The notes below the pieces were generated by a model, which was given only the letters and a program-made list of their open reading frames with translations, was not told the DNA's origin and did not search any database. A stretch of 64,000 nucleotides of DNA from Parafannyhessea umbonata. GTDB taxonomy: Bacteria > Actinomycetota > Coriobacteriia > Coriobacteriales > Atopobiaceae. Positions 4,661 through 64,000 of the stretch are shown here, piece after piece (the stretch's first letter is position 1; each line of letters starts with the position of its first letter). A program made the position numbers and the translations under genes. The DNA is taken from positions 62,001-126,000 of the forward strand of contig NZ_FOGP01000005.1 of NCBI RefSeq assembly GCF_900111255.1, written 5' to 3'.

Positions 4661-4689
4661 TTGACACCGAACGGGTGTTCGACTACTAT
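4661..4689 (+). promoter_or_regulatory. recA promoter with SOS (LexA) box
   Basis: The -35 box TTGACA is at 4661-4666 and the -10 box TACTAT at 4684-4689, with a 17-base spacer. Inside the spacer, at 4668-4681, lies CGAACGGGTGTTCG, a palindrome with GAAC-N4-GTTC that fits 13 of 14 positions of the Gram-positive SOS consensus CGAACRNRYGTTYC. LexA bound here would block RNA polymerase. recA starts 30 bases downstream at 4719. Confidence 0.88.
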
Positions 4690-4718: not shown

Positions 4719-5813
4719 ATGGCCAAGAGCAAGGGATCCGCACGCGCTGTGCACGAGAAGACCTACGGCGAAGAGCGCGACAAGATGATCGACGCCACCA
4801 CGTCCGAGATCGTCAAGAAGTTTGGCAAGGGCGCAATCATGAAGTACGGTGACGGCGGCGTAGACCTCGACATCGAAGCCATCCCTACCGGTTCTTTGGC
4901 CTTGGACGCCGCCCTGGGTATCGGTGGCGTTCCGCGTGGGCGCATCATCGAGATCTACGGCCCCGAGTCCTCGGGCAAGACGACGCTTTCACTCGAGATC
5001 CTCGCCGAGGCCCAGGCTATGGGCGGTGTCGTGGCTTTTATCGATGCCGAGCACGCGCTTGACCCCGGCTACGCCGCCCGCATCGGCGTCGACATCGACG
5101 AGGTCCTCATCTCTCAGCCCGATACCGGCGAGCAGGCACTCGAGATCTGTGACATGCTTGTTCGCTCCGGTGCCATCGACGTCGTGGTCGTTGACTCGGT
5201 CGCCGCGCTCGTCCCGCGCGCCGAGATCGAGGGTGAGATAGGCGACACCACCGTCGGCCTCCAGGCTCGCCTTATGAGCCAGGCGCTCCGCAAGCTTGCA
5301 GGCTCGCTCTCTAAGTCCAAGACGACCTGCATCTTCATCAACCAGCTCCGCGAGAAAATCGGCATCATGTTCGGCAACCCCGAGACGACGCCCGGTGGAC
5401 GTGCCCTCAAGTTCTTCTCTTCGGTTCGCATGGACATCCGCAGGATCGATTCGATCAAGAAAGACGGCGACGTCATCGGCAATAGGGTGAGGGTCAAGGT
5501 CGTCAAGAACAAGGTCGCTCCTCCCTTCAAGCAGGCCGAGTTCGACATCATGTACGGCACGGGTATCTCCAAGGAGGGCTCCATCCTGGACATGGCTGTC
5601 GACCTGGACGTCGTCAACAAGAGCGGCGCATGGTTCACCTACGAGACGGAGAGGCTTGGCCAGGGCAGGGAGGCTGCCAAGGCCTTTTTGGCCAGCAACC
5701 CCGACCTTCGCGAGGAGATCGACCACAAGGTACGGGTGGCGTGCGGCCTTGACTTTGGTGACGAGCCTGTCGGCGTTCCAGTTGCCCTCTCGGACACCGC
5801 TGAGGCGAAGTAG
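4719..5813 (+). CDS. recA: Recombinase RecA
   Basis: 364 residues. ATP-dependent strand exchange in homologous recombination, and co-protease for LexA self-cleavage. Visible are the Walker A motif GPESSGKTT (about 80-88), the [20 protein letters not shown] block, loop L2 [22 protein letters not shown], of which only the diagnostic core QLREKIG and ETTPGG is needed, and the C-terminal lid region. The length is typical (about 350). ATG 4719 follows ttgggagtgatt; a TTG twelve bases earlier would put the ribosome binding site inside the gene and is rejected. recX follows after 5 bases. Expression is predicted to be SOS-controlled through the box at 4668-4681. Confidence 0.97.
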
Positions 5814-13478: not shown

Positions 13479-14240
13479 TTATGCGAAGCGTGCTATTGCA
13501 TCCGCCAAGATGAGCAAGATTGGCTGGTGCGCCACGTAGATGGGCAGCGGTCGCCTGCCCACAACCTCGAGCGGTCCGATGCCGCATGAGAGCACGGCTG
13601 AAGTCGTCTTGCTCTCCTTCACCTTCGCGCCGGCTCCCCAGCCGGAAAGATAGAGGAAGAGGTAGGGGAGAAGGGGGTAGTAGTCCCCCGACGCGAAGCG
13701 GGGGCCAGGAAATCCCAGCCACGACAGCCAGCCCGCTTCGTATGGCGCCCTAGGCAGGCGGAGGGCATTTGCGCCCAGGCCTATGATTCCCTCCTGCAGG
13801 TTCAGGCAGACGATAAACGCCGCGGCAAGAAGCACGACGCCCATCCACCCCGGAGGCCTTACGCCAGTGCGCTCCAGTACGGCGGTTGTCAAGGTGCAGG
13901 CGCCCATGCAGTAGATGATTCCAAAGCTGATTGGTGTGTCGACGGCAGCCACGCTCGTCACGACGAATATCAGCAGGGCGACGGCGAGGTACTTTGCTGA
14001 CCTCTTGAGGTTGTTGCGCGAGTAGTTGCACATCATTCCGGCTAGCAGGATAAACGTCCACGATATGGTGCATCGCCAGACGTCCTGCGTCGGCGGCCGG
14101 AAGAACGGAAGGTCGATTCCCATGATGTACTTGAGGTCGTAGCAGAAGTGAAAAAGGACCATCGATATGACCGACAGCCCTCTGATAGTGTCGTAGAGCC
14201 TCGCTCGTTCGATTCGGTTCGCATCCTTGATATCGACCAA
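13479..14240 (-). CDS. DUF1624 / heparan-alpha-glucosaminide acetyltransferase-like membrane protein
   Basis: 253 residues, about seven hydrophobic helices. The N terminus YDTIRGLSVISMVLFHFCYD is the signature of DUF1624 (HGSNAT catalytic-like), membrane acyltransferase-like proteins whose bacterial substrates are mostly unknown; the His of LFHF is the likely catalytic residue by family analogy. TTG 14240 is used, with ccgaggtcaag upstream; no better start exists nearby. It lies 16 bases after the lexA stop on the same strand, so it is probably read from the lexA promoter. Whether it has any SOS role is not shown. Confidence 0.75.
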   Translation of the reverse strand: MVDIKDANRIERARLYDTIRGLSVISMVLFHFCYDLKYIMGIDLPFFRPPTQDVWRCTISWTFILLAGMMCNYSRNNLKRSAKYLAVALLIFVVTSVAAVDTPISFGIIYCMGACTLTTAVLERTGVRPPGWMGVVLLAAAFIVCLNLQEGIIGLGANALRLPRAPYEAGWLSWLGFPGPRFASGDYYPLLPYLFLYLSGWGAGAKVKESKTTSAVLSCGIGPLEVVGRRPLPIYVAHQPILLILADAIARFA

Positions 14241-14256: not shown

Positions 14257-14901
14257 CTAGATTGACCTGAAGAGTCCGGTTACACGCCCCAGGATCTTCG
14301 GGTTGTCGACGTAGATCGGGTCCATGGTGTCGTTCTCGGGCTGGAGCCTGATCCTGTCCTTCTCGCGATAGAAGGTCTTCACGGTCGAAGAGTCGTCGAT
14401 GAGCGCAACGACGATTTCGCCGTCACGGGCGTCGTCCTGCTGCTTCACGACAATGTAGTCACCGTCGAGAATGCCGGCGTTAATCATAGACTGCCCACGG
14501 ACGCGAAGCACGAAGGAACTCGCGTCGCCGACGATGCTGGTCGGAAGTCTGAAGCTGTCCTCCACGTTTTGCTCGGCGAGGATGGGCGTTCCCGCGGCCA
14601 CGCGGCCGACGAGGGGGAGAGAGACCGAGCCGTCCTCGAGATCCTGCGTGACCCTGGCGACCTTGTCTGTCGACTCGGTGTCTTCCTCAACGACCTCGAT
14701 GGTGCGCGGCTTCTTGGAGTCACGCTTGATGAGGCCGCGCTCCTGCAGAACCTTGAGGTGCATGTGGACGGTTGACGGCGAAGCCAGGCCGACGGCAACG
14801 CCAATCTCGCGCACCGATGGCGGATAGCCGTGTTCAGTCGTGTAGTCGCAGATGAAGTCGTAGATTGCCTGCTGACGCTTGCTCAGTTTGTCTCTGGACA
14901 T
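14257..14901 (-). CDS. lexA: SOS repressor LexA
   Basis: 214 residues. Winged-helix DNA-binding domain (1-70; GYPPSVREIGVAVGLASPST) and S24 self-cleaving domain. The scissile Ala103-Gly104 lies in GRVAAGTPI, the catalytic serine is Ser138 (RGQSM) and the lysine Lys175 (STVKTF). ATG 14901 follows gaaggagggaatc; a longer reading to 14952 would cross this site and the -10 box. Divergent to the LysM gene at 15085 with SOS-like boxes between. It should repress itself, the LysM gene and recA. Confidence 0.96.
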   Translation of the reverse strand: MSRDKLSKRQQAIYDFICDYTTEHGYPPSVREIGVAVGLASPSTVHMHLKVLQERGLIKRDSKKPRTIEVVEEDTESTDKVARVTQDLEDGSVSLPLVGRVAAGTPILAEQNVEDSFRLPTSIVGDASSFVLRVRGQSMINAGILDGDYIVVKQQDDARDGEIVVALIDDSSTVKTFYREKDRIRLQPENDTMDPIYVDNPKILGRVTGLFRSI

Positions 14902-14923: not shown

Positions 14924-14963
14924 ATTTTACGCGAACGGATGGAATTAGACAAACAAATGTTCG
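14924..14963 (-). promoter_or_regulatory. lexA promoter overlapping an SOS-like box
   Basis: Read on the minus strand: -35 TTGTCT (14952-14947), 17-base spacer, -10 TAAAAT (14929-14924). The box CAAACAAATGTTCG at 14950-14963 (plus-strand reading) covers the -35 and fits 12 of 14 positions of the Gram-positive SOS consensus, missing the second G and the last C. This is the layout expected for LexA autorepression. Confidence 0.7.
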
Positions 14964-14971
14964 ATTATTGC

Positions 14972-15013
14972 TTGACCGTACGCTTGTTCTATATATAGTA
15001 GTACATGTGTTCC
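14972..15013 (+). promoter_or_regulatory. LysM-gene promoter with two SOS-like boxes
   Basis: -35 TTGACC (14972-14977), 16-base spacer, -10 TATAGT (14994-14999). CGTACGCTTGTTCT at 14977-14990 lies in the spacer (11/14 to the SOS consensus) and AGTACATGTGTTCC at 15000-15013 lies at the expected transcription start (12/14). A weaker half-site, GTTCG, is at 15023-15027. The boxes are spaced 27 and 23 bases from start to start. Leader of about 75 bases to the ATG. Confidence 0.65.
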
Positions 15014-15084
15014 AATTCGTGCGTTCGAATTGTTGTCCGATCCTCTCGTCACAATGAGGTCAACAAATTCGAAAGGGGATAGAA

Positions 15085-15513
15085 ATGAACAACGCATCCT
15101 GCGCATATGCGGTCGACGGTAACCTTGCCCTCAAGCCCGTGGAACGCCGGCGCCTCATTCTTGTTGAGGGTTCGTCTTGCGGCGGTCGTCGTGCCGACTT
15201 CGTGCCTGAGGCTCCCGCTGCCGCTTCGCCGAAGTGCGTGGGGTCGCTTCTCGTGTTCGTTACCGCGTCTCTTATGCTCCTGGGGGCCATGGCTCTGGGC
15301 TCGACTCTCAGGGCCCAGCGTCTTTCTGCCCCCTTCTCCAACGTCTCCCGTCAGACCGTGGAGGTTTCCTCTGGCGACAGTGTGTGGACGATTGCCGAGC
15401 AACATCCGGTCGAGGGTGCTTCGACCCGTTCCGTTGCTGACTGGATCATCGAGGCCAACGGCCTCGAGCAGTCTAACCTTTCCGTCGGTCAGGCGCTCGT
15501 CGTGCCTGCTTAG
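15085..15513 (+). CDS. LysM membrane protein, probable SOS cell-division inhibitor (YneA/ChiZ-like)
   Basis: 142 residues. A cytoplasmic segment of about 50 residues, one transmembrane helix (51-74, SLLVFVTASLMLLGAMALG), then a single LysM peptidoglycan-binding domain (about 91-141; VSSGDSVWTIAEQ, WIIEANGL, VGQALVVPA). A small TM-plus-LysM protein encoded divergently from lexA is the pattern of YneA in Bacillus and ChiZ/DivS in other actinobacteria, which delay division after DNA damage. The assignment rests on architecture, position and the SOS-like boxes at 14977-15013, not on strong sequence identity. Ribosome binding site gaaaggggatagaa. Confidence 0.75.
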   Translation: MNNASCAYAVDGNLALKPVERRRLILVEGSSCGGRRADFVPEAPAAASPKCVGSLLVFVTASLMLLGAMALGSTLRAQRLSAPFSNVSRQTVEVSSGDSVWTIAEQHPVEGASTRSVADWIIEANGLEQSNLSVGQALVVPA

Positions 15514-15620: not shown

Positions 15621-16073
15621 ATGCGCTGTCCCAAATGCGGATGCGATGAGTCGAAGGTCGTTGACTCTCGCCCTTCCGAGAGCAACGATGCGATTCGTCG
15701 TCGTCGTGAGTGCATCAAGTGCGGCACCCGTTTTACGACATATGAGCGTCGCGAGGAAATGCCCATCCTCGTGGTCAAGAAGGATGGTTCCAAGGAGACC
15801 TTCGAGCGCCAGAAGCTTATGCGCGGTCTCGTTACTGCTACTGTCAAGCGCAACGTGGCGCTCGAGGACCTGAACAATCTCATTGACGACATCGAGTCCT
15901 ACCTCAGGGACAACGGTATTACCGAGGTGCCCTCCCAGGAGATCGGCAAACTCGTGCTTCAACGTCTTATCGATGTGGATAAGGTCGCTTACGTTCGCTT
16001 TGCGTCTGTCTATCGCGACTTCAAGGACGTGGATGAGTTCAACGAGGAGCTGAGGAGCCTGGCTAATGAGTAG
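15621..16073 (+). CDS. nrdR: Transcriptional repressor NrdR
   Basis: 150 residues, repressor of ribonucleotide reductase genes, sensing dATP/ATP. N-terminal zinc ribbon with [18 protein letters not shown] and CIKCGTRF (four Zn cysteines), then an ATP-cone domain (about 49-139; [19 protein letters not shown]). ATG 15621 follows gaggaggaat exactly; an upstream in-frame codon at 15609 is rejected because it overlaps that site. No NrdR box was recognised in this window, so its targets lie elsewhere. It overlaps dut by 8 bases, a sensible pairing of dNTP-pool functions. Confidence 0.96.
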
Positions 16074-16512
16074 CGAGCGCATCAATCTTCCCATTATGAG
16101 ACTCGACCACGAGGTTGAGCTTCCCACGTACGCCTACGAGGGCGATGCTGGGCTCGACCTTCGCTCCAACGAGGATGTCGTCCTCCAGCCCCTTGAGCGT
16201 CGCCTCATCTCCACTGGTCTCGCAATCGCGATTCCCGAGGGATATGCCGGTTTTGTCCTGCCCCGAAGCGGGCTTGCCTATCGAGAGGGCCTTTCGATGG
16301 CCAATGCGCCGGGCCTCATCGATGCGCACTATCGTGGTGAGCTCAAGCTTTGTGCCGTTAACCTTGATGGGGAGAATCCCATTAGCATCTCTAGGGGCGA
16401 ACGAATCGCCCAACTTGTTATTCAAAAGGTTCCGGTCGTTAATCTCGTCGAGGTCGAAGAGCTTGATTCGACTGACAGGGGGACCGGGGGATTTGGTTCA
16501 AGCGGTGTCTAG
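16066..16512 (+). CDS. dut: Deoxyuridine 5'-triphosphate nucleotidohydrolase
   Basis: 148 residues, trimeric dUTPase converting dUTP to dUMP and pyrophosphate. All five family motifs are visible: 1 DAGLDLRS, 2 PRSGLA, 3 [12 protein letters not shown], 4 RIAQLV and 5 [10 protein letters not shown]. The start ATG lies within the end of nrdR after gaggagcctggcta. Full length for the family. Confidence 0.96.
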
Positions 16513-21180: not shown

Positions 21181-21216
21181 GCCCGGCCTGAAACGAATAT
21201 CTGTTTCAGGCCGGGC
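21175..21216 (-). terminator. Terminator of the ClC gene
   Basis: A perfect 14-bp stem (GCCCGGCCTGAAAC, 21181-21194, with its complement 21203-21216) and an 8-base loop. On the minus strand the stem is followed by TTTCTC. It lies 42 bases after the ClC stop. Confidence 0.8.
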
Positions 21217-61372: not shown

Positions 61373-64000
61373 CTAAGGCTCCTGGCAACGCCGACGGCAC
61401 GCGCCCGCGGCGACGAGCGCAACACCAAGGAGTGCTGCGAATCCGGCAAGGTCGGAAGCAAGGTCGCCCGTCTGCGGGATGCGCTCACCAGCGTACTTGA
61501 AGCGTCTGCCGCGCGCGAGCCTGGCAGCGTCCTCCGCGTAGTTGCCCCAGACGGGCTCGAAGATGATATCTGCGGTCATAGGCGTGTTGAAGATGGCATC
61601 GGGGTCCTCAACGTAGGTGGTAACGCCGTTGATGGTAATCAACCAGCCCTTGAGGTAATAGCCAGGCGTCGCATCAATCCCGACGGCTTCGTGCGGAATC
61701 GTGAAGCCGTACTCGATGGCCTCGGGGTCGATGGTGACGCTGCCGCCGGGCTGGACGCCTCCGACGACGCTAGGCGTGTGCTTCTCGATGTCCCAGACCG
61801 CGTAGAGCGTGATATCGGAGCCGTCGGCGAGGGCCGCAAGCAGGTACATGGCCGTGCGCGGGTCGTCAAGGTCGCCGAAGAGACCGTCGTCAAGCTCGCC
61901 AGCCGCAAGAAGCGTGAGGGCACGCATAAGCTGCTCGTCGCTGATGTCAGGCTCGGTCGCATCGGGCGAGAAGCTCCAGCCGAGGAACTTTGCGTTGCGG
62001 CGCGAGAAGCCGGTCTTGCCCAGCTGGAAGTCGGGATCGTCGTAGGTGTACTCGACGTCTTCCATCCGACCGGTAGCAACGGGATCGTTCTTGTCGAAGT
62101 GCAGGTTGTAGACGTTCTGAATCCAAACCGGCTTGAGAATGGAGTCGTGGTCGGGCATGGTGCAGGCGCCGCCGGGCTCGTACACGTTGCCGTCCTCGTC
62201 CTCCCAGCCGCCAAGTGTGTAGCCGTTGCGCTTGACGTCGTCCTCGGTCGGGAGCGTGATGATGGAGTCGGTTCCGTAGGTGAACGTGCGCGGCAGCGTG
62301 TCGGTGGAGGTCTCAGCCTCGTCCTCACGAACACCGAAGCTGCCGTCGTAGGTGCTCCAGCTGCCCTCGCCGCGACCATCATCGTCGAGGCCAGAGGCGT
62401 CGTCGGTCCACGTGCCCCTGTTGGGGTCGAGCGTGAGCGTGTGGTCGTTGGCGATGTAGTATAGCCACAGGACCGTCGACTCGTCGCCGTTGAGGTTGTC
62501 CTTGGGATGGCTGTAGACCAAAGTGCCGTCCGCAAGCGTGATGGGCGTGTCGGGATCGACGATCACAGTGTAGCCGGTGAAGCCCTCGCGGGTCTCGGTG
62601 TCGAACGGGATAGCGGTCACGGTGGTGTCGGTGGTGCCGGTGAGGTTCTCGATGACCTCCTCGAGGGTGGTCTTGTTACCCGTGACGCGGATGTGGCGGA
62701 CGACGTAGGGCGTATCAATATTTGCGGTATAGAAGAACTTGAGCGCAAGCGTTCCTTCGCCGTCAAGGTTTGCGGCGGAGAGGCCCGTATCACCCTCGCC
62801 GTTGTCATAGTCGCTCACGTAGGTGTATCCGGGGTAGTAGCCCGCGGGCTTCTCCCCTGCCGTGACCTGGGCGTTGTTGATGTCATCGTCGGTTGCCGCA
62901 GGATCATAGGTGTGCGTGACGTTGCCGTCGGCATCGACCGCGTAAGAGCCGTCGGTGATGCCCGTGAACTCACGTGTGTCACCCTCGACCTCGTGGGCCA
63001 CGCCGTCGGCGTCGACGAGGTAGTGCGTGACAGTGTACGTCGTGTCGCTGCGCGCACGCCAGATAGCGTAGAGCGTGACCTGCGAGGTGGGCATCAGGAA
63101 GGTGCCGTCGGGCTCGATGAACATCGCGTTGGGCATCTCAAACGTCGGGTTCTCGTCAGCGAAGGCGCGTAGGAGCATGGCAAGCAATGATGCGCCGCCA
63201 AGCTGGTCGCCCTCCCCGGCATCCGGGTCGACGAACTCGCCGTTCTCGACGCTCTCGAGCCTACGGGCGGTCTCGACGGAACGCTCTCCGCGGGCGCTCG
63301 GACCCATGGCGCCGTCAGCGACCAGCGACCAACCGACCAGGTCGTAGCCGGCGCGGGTCGGGAGAACGTAGCCGTGCGTGGCGAGGACCTCGGAAATCTT
63401 CAACGTAGACTCAGAGGTCTCGTTGCTCACGAAGTTGCCAAGGCTCCAGGAGCCGTTGCCGTCGGAGTCTCCGGCAACGATCTCGAGCCTGACGTCGATG
63501 CGCGCGGCGTAGTACAGGTTGAGGACCATTGAGCCGTCGCCCAGGACGACGTCGACGTCGTGCGAGACGTAGGTCACGCCGTTCACGTCCGTGAACGTCT
63601 GCTTATACTCGTAGCCCACGAAGTCCGGATCGTAAGCTTCGTCACCCTCGACACCGGAGCGCTTGCGGGAGATGGCGGGAGTATCGGTGCCCTTGGAGAT
63701 GATCTCAACGATGAGGTCCTTCTCGACGCCGTCGCCGGTGACGCGGTGGTGGTTGACCGTGTAGGTGGAGTTCTCGTCCGCGAAGTAGTACAGGACAAGG
63801 ATCATGTCACCCGTGCCGTCGATGTTGCCGGAGGCCACCGTCATGTAGCTGTTGCCGAGGAGGTCGCTGTAGGTTACGCCGTCCTTGATGTAGTGGTATC
63901 CAGCCATGACGATGTTGTCGTGCGTGCGCCACTTGGGCGTTCCGATGCTGGTGTCCGCGTCGGCGATCGCCTCCTCGTCGGTCACGCCCGTGCGCTCGAT
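61373..64000 (-). CDS. Sortase-anchored repeat surface protein (5' end beyond window)
   Basis: At least 875 residues; the frame is open to the window edge, so the start and signal peptide are not seen. Repeated beta modules of two types: MucBP-like segments (YTVNHHRVTGDG, YTVTHYLVDADG, YVVRHIRVTGNK, each ending in an LYYxA-type strand), and InlB B-repeat/Flg_new-type segments (AGYDLVGWS to VTLYAIW; GYTLGGWEDEDGNVYEPGG; ITLYAVW). The C terminus is a cell-wall sorting signal: IPQTG, hydrophobic helix (LAGFAALLGVALVAAGA), then RRRC. Likely an adhesin or host-interaction protein linked to peptidoglycan by a sortase not in this window. Confidence 0.9.
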   Translation of the reverse strand: MERTGVTDEEAIADADTSIGTPKWRTHDNIVMAGYHYIKDGVTYSDLLGNSYMTVASGNIDGTGDMILVLYYFADENSTYTVNHHRVTGDGVEKDLIVEIISKGTDTPAISRKRSGVEGDEAYDPDFVGYEYKQTFTDVNGVTYVSHDVDVVLGDGSMVLNLYYAARIDVRLEIVAGDSDGNGSWSLGNFVSNETSESTLKISEVLATHGYVLPTRAGYDLVGWSLVADGAMGPSARGERSVETARRLESVENGEFVDPDAGEGDQLGGASLLAMLLRAFADENPTFEMPNAMFIEPDGTFLMPTSQVTLYAIWRARSDTTYTVTHYLVDADGVAHEVEGDTREFTGITDGSYAVDADGNVTHTYDPAATDDDINNAQVTAGEKPAGYYPGYTYVSDYDNGEGDTGLSAANLDGEGTLALKFFYTANIDTPYVVRHIRVTGNKTTLEEVIENLTGTTDTTVTAIPFDTETREGFTGYTVIVDPDTPITLADGTLVYSHPKDNLNGDESTVLWLYYIANDHTLTLDPNRGTWTDDASGLDDDGRGEGSWSTYDGSFGVREDEAETSTDTLPRTFTYGTDSIITLPTEDDVKRNGYTLGGWEDEDGNVYEPGGACTMPDHDSILKPVWIQNVYNLHFDKNDPVATGRMEDVEYTYDDPDFQLGKTGFSRRNAKFLGWSFSPDATEPDISDEQLMRALTLLAAGELDDGLFGDLDDPRTAMYLLAALADGSDITLYAVWDIEKHTPSVVGGVQPGGSVTIDPEAIEYGFTIPHEAVGIDATPGYYLKGWLITINGVTTYVEDPDAIFNTPMTADIIFEPVWGNYAEDAARLARGRRFKYAGERIPQTGDLASDLAGFAALLGVALVAAGACRRRCQEP

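Follow-up and report, generated by a model that had tools for sequence, protein, structure and literature searches.

Two proteins that combine a single transmembrane (TM) helix with a LysM domain and are encoded next to lexA have been characterised, ChiZ in Mycobacterium tuberculosis and YneA in Bacillus subtilis. In M. tuberculosis, Rv2719c (ChiZ) forms an operon with nrdR and Rv2717c that is under LexA control (PMC4181829), and a PafBC motif at this locus is directed into the Rv2719c operon and not into lexA (PMC8151990). The RecA-independent (PafBC) promoter of mycobacteria follows the pattern tTGTCRgtg-N8-TannnT (PMC5656591), and PafBC itself senses single-stranded DNA (PMC11804915). The two proteins differ in the role of LysM. 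In YneA, the TM helix binds TM7 of FtsW, and binding of LysM to peptidoglycan is required, with the peptidoglycan-binding residues D46 and T47 being needed (PMC13396833), whereas the LysM domain of ChiZ is reported to be dispensable (PMC3989709).

Here we analyse a similar locus in a window of 64,000 nucleotides from a 2.06-Mb genome of Atopobiaceae, the family of Olsenella and Parafannyhessea (Table 1). The computational results comprise LexA boxes, promoters, synteny, protein domains, the conservation of a predicted second promoter, P2, and its co-occurrence with PafBC-like genes. P2, a cytoplasmic motif and a LysM-less part of the order go beyond the original prediction, which had proposed a damage-induced division inhibitor divergent from lexA.

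Table 1. Features of the lexA–TM-LysM locus and of recA in the window
Feature	Position	Strand	Remarks
LexA box of recA, CGAACGGGTGTTCG	4668..4681		perfect; in spacer of TTGACA-17-TACTAT; matrix rank 2
recA	4719..5813	+	Pfam RecA, E 2e-137
lexA	14257..14901	-	214 aa, ATG 14901; TIGR00498 235 bits, E 5e-70; Pfam LexA_DNA_bind and Peptidase_S24
Predicted lexA promoter, TTGTCT-17-TAAAAT	14924..14952	-	-35 TTGTCT at 14952; TAAAAT ends at 14924
LexA box 1, CAAACAAATGTTCG	14950..14963		matrix rank 1 of 63,987; conserved in relatives
Predicted TM-LysM promoter P1, TTGACC-16-TATAGT	14972..14999	+	TTGACC at 14972; TATAGT ends at 14999
LexA box 2, CGTACGCTTGTTCT	14977..14990		matrix rank 5 of 63,987; register conserved
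LexA box 3, AGTACATGTGTTCC	15000..15013		matrix rank 3 of 63,987; AGTAC-type box in relatives
PafBC-type element P2, TTGTCCGAT-CCTCTCGT-CACAAT	15033..15055	+	-10-like half degenerate in this genome; TTGTCCG-N10-TATAA in relatives
TM-LysM protein, predicted SOS division inhibitor	15085..15513	+	142 aa; Pfam LysM PF01476, E 1e-6
Cytoplasmic motif GNLAL...LVEG	15118..15171	+	aa 12-29; conserved
Membrane helix	15238..15306	+	aa 52-74 by hydropathy; helix 52-84 in predicted structure
LysM domain	15361..15507	+	aa 93-141; Pfam; Foldseek to LysM structures, probability 1.0, E 6e-3
nrdR	15621..16073	+	downstream of TM-LysM gene; order as in M. tuberculosis
dut	16066..16512	+	overlaps nrdR

Gene order and distribution

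The likeness to yneA and chiZ that the original prediction had drawn is borne out by the gene order and by the protein architecture, a single TM helix followed by a C-terminal LysM domain. As in M. tuberculosis, the TM-LysM gene is divergent from lexA and precedes nrdR, and its product has a predicted cytoplasmic N-terminal tail. Judged by these sequence features, the locus has the ChiZ arrangement and thus belongs to a known kind. The next gene is different, dut following nrdR in Coriobacteriales and Rv2717c in M. tuberculosis. In B. subtilis, yneA is presumably followed by yneB-ynzC, and the Coriobacteriales gene by nrdR-dut. An HGSNAT-like membrane acyltransferase gene (13479-14240) shares the strand of lexA and lies immediately downstream of it.

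Searching for the same gene pair in other Coriobacteriia, we found it to be near-universal in Atopobiaceae and Coriobacteriaceae, where nearly all loci show the order lexA<>TM-LysM>nrdR>dut. TM-LysM proteins encoded divergently from lexA were also detected at 15 of another 29 loci of Actinomycetota.

LexA boxes and predicted divergent promoters

Counting mismatches against the consensus CGAACNNNNGTTCG yields 53 sites with at most two mismatches in the whole window, compared with 49.6 expected from shuffled sequences. Since this is no enrichment, single boxes are weak evidence, and we therefore built a matrix from relatives, trained on 154 sites with the source genus left out and scored at 63,987 window positions. 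The three boxes originally proposed at 14950, 14977 and 15000 are correctly placed. They take ranks 1, 5 and 3, with the recA box at rank 2, and their register recurs in relatives. Boxes 2 and 3 mismatch the consensus at 2–3 of 10 positions. The rank-4 site, at 21194, coincides with the hairpin stem of a terminator and was rejected as a LexA box. A further LexA-like site at 15026 (CGAATTGTTGTCCG; rank 24) was also rejected, its conserved part being the TTGTCC of P2.

At 91 lexA loci of the order, the intergenic regions contain 153 LexA sites with at most one mismatch (0.45 expected). In Coriobacteriaceae and Eggerthellaceae, most neighbouring boxes are spaced at 28 bp; in Atopobiaceae the spacing is about 28 bp and then about 24 bp. 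The 28-bp repeats of the former two families are strikingly regular at some loci (e.g. L087 and L098), and a repeat of this kind may reflect LexA dimers that touch one another on the DNA.

Box 1 overlaps the predicted -35 element of lexA, box 2 lies within the spacer of the predicted promoter P1, and box 3 follows immediately 3' of the P1 -10 element. This agrees with the earlier assignment of the boxes to the lexA -35, the LysM spacer and the LysM start. A -35 element TTGACC or TTGACA is seen in aligned relatives as well. The recA box likewise sits in a promoter spacer, as box 2 does in P1, and 28 of 29 recA genes of the family carry a LexA box 107–129 bp upstream of the aligned segment. In the window, recA and lexA are about 8.4 kb apart, with miaB, miaA and hflX-like genes in between. 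A consensus scan of the source genome for other SOS genes, allowing at most one mismatch, gave 105 sites against 217 in a reversed control and was too noisy for an SOS regulon to be called.

Control of the TM-LysM gene by LexA is supported by the conservation of the boxes, the box shared with recA and the placement of the predicted promoters. It could instead be argued that LexA regulates only lexA, to which the strongest box belongs, and that the TM-LysM gene encodes a constitutive cell-wall protein and is no more than a neighbour; some TM-LysM proteins, such as SpoIIIM, are known to have other roles (PMC13396833). We regard this as very improbable, given that boxes 2 and 3 fall on the TM-LysM promoter in a register kept by relatives and that the adjacency to lexA is conserved over the phylum.

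The TM-LysM protein and its family

Pfam, hydropathy, AlphaFold and Foldseek together show one TM helix ahead of a LysM domain at the C-terminus, confirming the small membrane LysM protein first noticed opposite lexA. The AlphaFold model (mean pLDDT 81) shows a disordered N-terminus, one long helix and a LysM fold. The NCBIfam YneA model (PRK14125) covers residues 64-142 (E 1e-12), with a score of 47.5 bits that is below the cut-off of 60. The protein may therefore work like YneA, yet it is not classed as YneA, from which it also differs in its long cytoplasmic tail.

An alignment of 33 proteins of the family reveals a cytoplasmic motif, G-[TNS]-x-A-L...[LF]-x-[LV]-[IV]-E-G-G (GTSAL...IEGG), in which G12 and A15 are invariant and L16 and G29 are conserved in at least 90% of the sequences. 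The LysM residues W101, N125 and G135 are invariant, and the LysM core GD[ST]xW is kept in the family (GDS/W in the protein of the window). The motif is present in 57 of 64 genes, against 1.7 expected after shuffling. It is shared in Coriobacteriales and is not readily recognised in those proteins of other Actinomycetota that we examined.

In Eggerthellaceae, all 14 genes found keep the cytoplasmic motif and stop at the membrane helix, in contrast to the LysM-bearing ChiZ. The same form, motif and helix without LysM, is also seen in one Atopobiaceae genus, in two genomes, and in some other lineages. Since a deep-branching Coriobacteriia locus carries LysM, the simpler reading of these sequences is that LysM was lost in Eggerthellaceae. 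These versions make it less likely that the mechanism relies on LysM alone. Corynebacterium glutamicum DivS and Staphylococcus aureus SosA are lexA-linked or SOS-induced division inhibitors that also lack LysM, and by description the Eggerthellaceae form, which ends at the TM helix, is comparable to them.

The lexA-divergent gene was not detected in several lineages (L048, L053, L091, L102, L103, L233, L251 and L254), among them Adlercreutzia and Olsenella KGMB02461, and LexA boxes are still present there upstream of lexA. Three Adlercreutzia loci and the genus of Olsenella KGMB02461 yielded no comparable open reading frame. Loss of the gene in Adlercreutzia and in the KGMB02461 genus implies that the proposed checkpoint is not indispensable.

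The protein could also be induced by LexA or PafBC for envelope repair or peptidoglycan remodelling, and not for inhibiting division. Such a role would fit the description of ChiZ as a cell-wall hydrolase (PMC3989709). However, the Pfam search found no hydrolase domain in the TM-LysM protein, the Eggerthellaceae versions have no outside part, and both YneA and ChiZ, the characterised lexA-adjacent TM-LysM proteins, inhibit division. We thus consider a repair role unlikely, and division inhibition remains our preferred reading.

A probable second promoter and a PafBC-like regulator

Below the LexA boxes, most Atopobiaceae and Coriobacteriaceae carry the element TTGTCCG-N10-TATAA(C), termed P2. 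Its -10 half reads CACAAT in the source genome instead of TATAAC, and TACAAC in a genome of the same genus. With gaps of 6–18 allowed, 34 of 36 matches have 12 bases between TGTC and TA. Frame and spacing are those of the mycobacterial PafBC motif, with the difference that position 6 is C in P2 and R in mycobacteria (PMC5656591).

The source genome has a single WYL gene (L261; G000:C5:84016-85983). Its product is a fusion of 656 aa that contains two WYL stretches and gives a hit to the PafBC structure PDB 6sj9. The Pfam HTH_PafC domain scores 25.2 bits, under the cut-off of 32, and 36.4 bits in the homologue from the same genus. This genus and Parafannyhessea have the fused form; most relatives give one match for each half, in two neighbouring but unjoined stretches. 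Where a PafBC-like gene is present, 40 of 48 genomes have P2; where it is absent, none of 30 do. Within Atopobiaceae the corresponding figures are 28 of 29 and none of 5. All these are counts of genomes that are not phylogenetically independent. The genomes without a clear PafBC-like homologue comprise three different Atopobiaceae genera in addition to Eggerthellaceae. Three Atopobiaceae loci (L060, L062 and L063) are without a clear PafBC-like gene, P2 or the cytoplasmic motif and keep the TM-LysM gene.

A strict form of the element occurs 15 times in 17 Atopobiaceae and Coriobacteriaceae genomes, 11 times at the lexA locus, and is absent from a reversed control. The four other sites lie in or beside unrelated genes and were not accepted as PafBC targets, and no P2-like element was found upstream of recA. 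Because the strict pattern was derived from the lexA locus itself, the regulon may be wider and its motif less strict.

From these sequence data, P2 is probably switched on by the PafBC-like WYL regulator. That it is an ordinary promoter, or the site of another regulator, seems to us the less plausible view, though one to be taken seriously: position 6 departs from the mycobacterial motif, the regulator is only distantly similar to PafBC (strong in WYL, uneven in HTH_PafC), and no further convincing targets emerged from the strict matches. Against it stand the PafBC spacing of nearly all matches and the absence of the element wherever PafBC-like genes are absent.

A model for the proposed checkpoint

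The synteny and the domain architecture common to ChiZ and YneA support the original reading of the locus as an SOS division checkpoint. We consider it likely that the locus encodes a checkpoint of the ChiZ/YneA kind, in which a LexA-repressed TM-LysM protein inhibits septal wall synthesis and a PafBC-like factor probably provides a second input. From these relatives we infer the binding of LexA and PafBC, the induction, the topology and the division block.

LexA on the three boxes would silence both divergent promoters. Upon DNA damage, RecA filaments would trigger LexA cleavage, so that lexA and the TM-LysM gene, the latter from P1, are derepressed together. P2, situated below the boxes, would be fired by the PafBC-like WYL factor bound to single-stranded DNA, as modelled on mycobacterial PafBC, and would constitute a LexA-independent input. 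At the ChiZ locus, control by LexA is accompanied by a PafBC motif; the candidate counterparts here are the predicted LexA boxes and P2, which is conserved in relatives and has a degenerate -10-like half in the source genome. The product would insert with its N-terminus inside, one helix in the membrane and LysM outside, and slow septum synthesis until repair is done. Its most likely target would be FtsW/FtsI, with LysM holding septal peptidoglycan; the source genome encodes three proteins of the FtsW/RodA family.

More tentatively, and as a possibility that we rate below even chance, the inhibitor core of Coriobacteriales could be the cytoplasmic GTSAL... motif with the membrane helix, and not LysM. 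Eggerthellaceae would then use a tail-anchored form without an outside part, and the PafBC regulon of Atopobiaceae and Coriobacteriaceae may be reduced to essentially one gene.

A literature search, outside which most subscription papers fell, returned no work on SOS or PafBC in Coriobacteriia. In it we found no description of the order-wide presence of the gene in Coriobacteriia, of its cytoplasmic motif, of the branch lacking LysM or of a PafBC-like second promoter in this group.

Coriobacteriia are common gut bacteria and are exposed to genotoxic drugs and host metabolites. The lineages with LysM, those without it and those that have lost the gene form a natural set in which to ask which part of the inhibitor stops septation, and LysM-plus and LysM-minus lineages could address the conflict between YneA, where LysM is needed, and ChiZ, where it is reported to be dispensable. 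The dual input of LexA and a PafBC-like factor on a lexA-adjacent gene, known in mycobacteria and predicted for Coriobacteriia, points to a checkpoint that is old in actinobacteria, or to one that has been repeatedly favoured.
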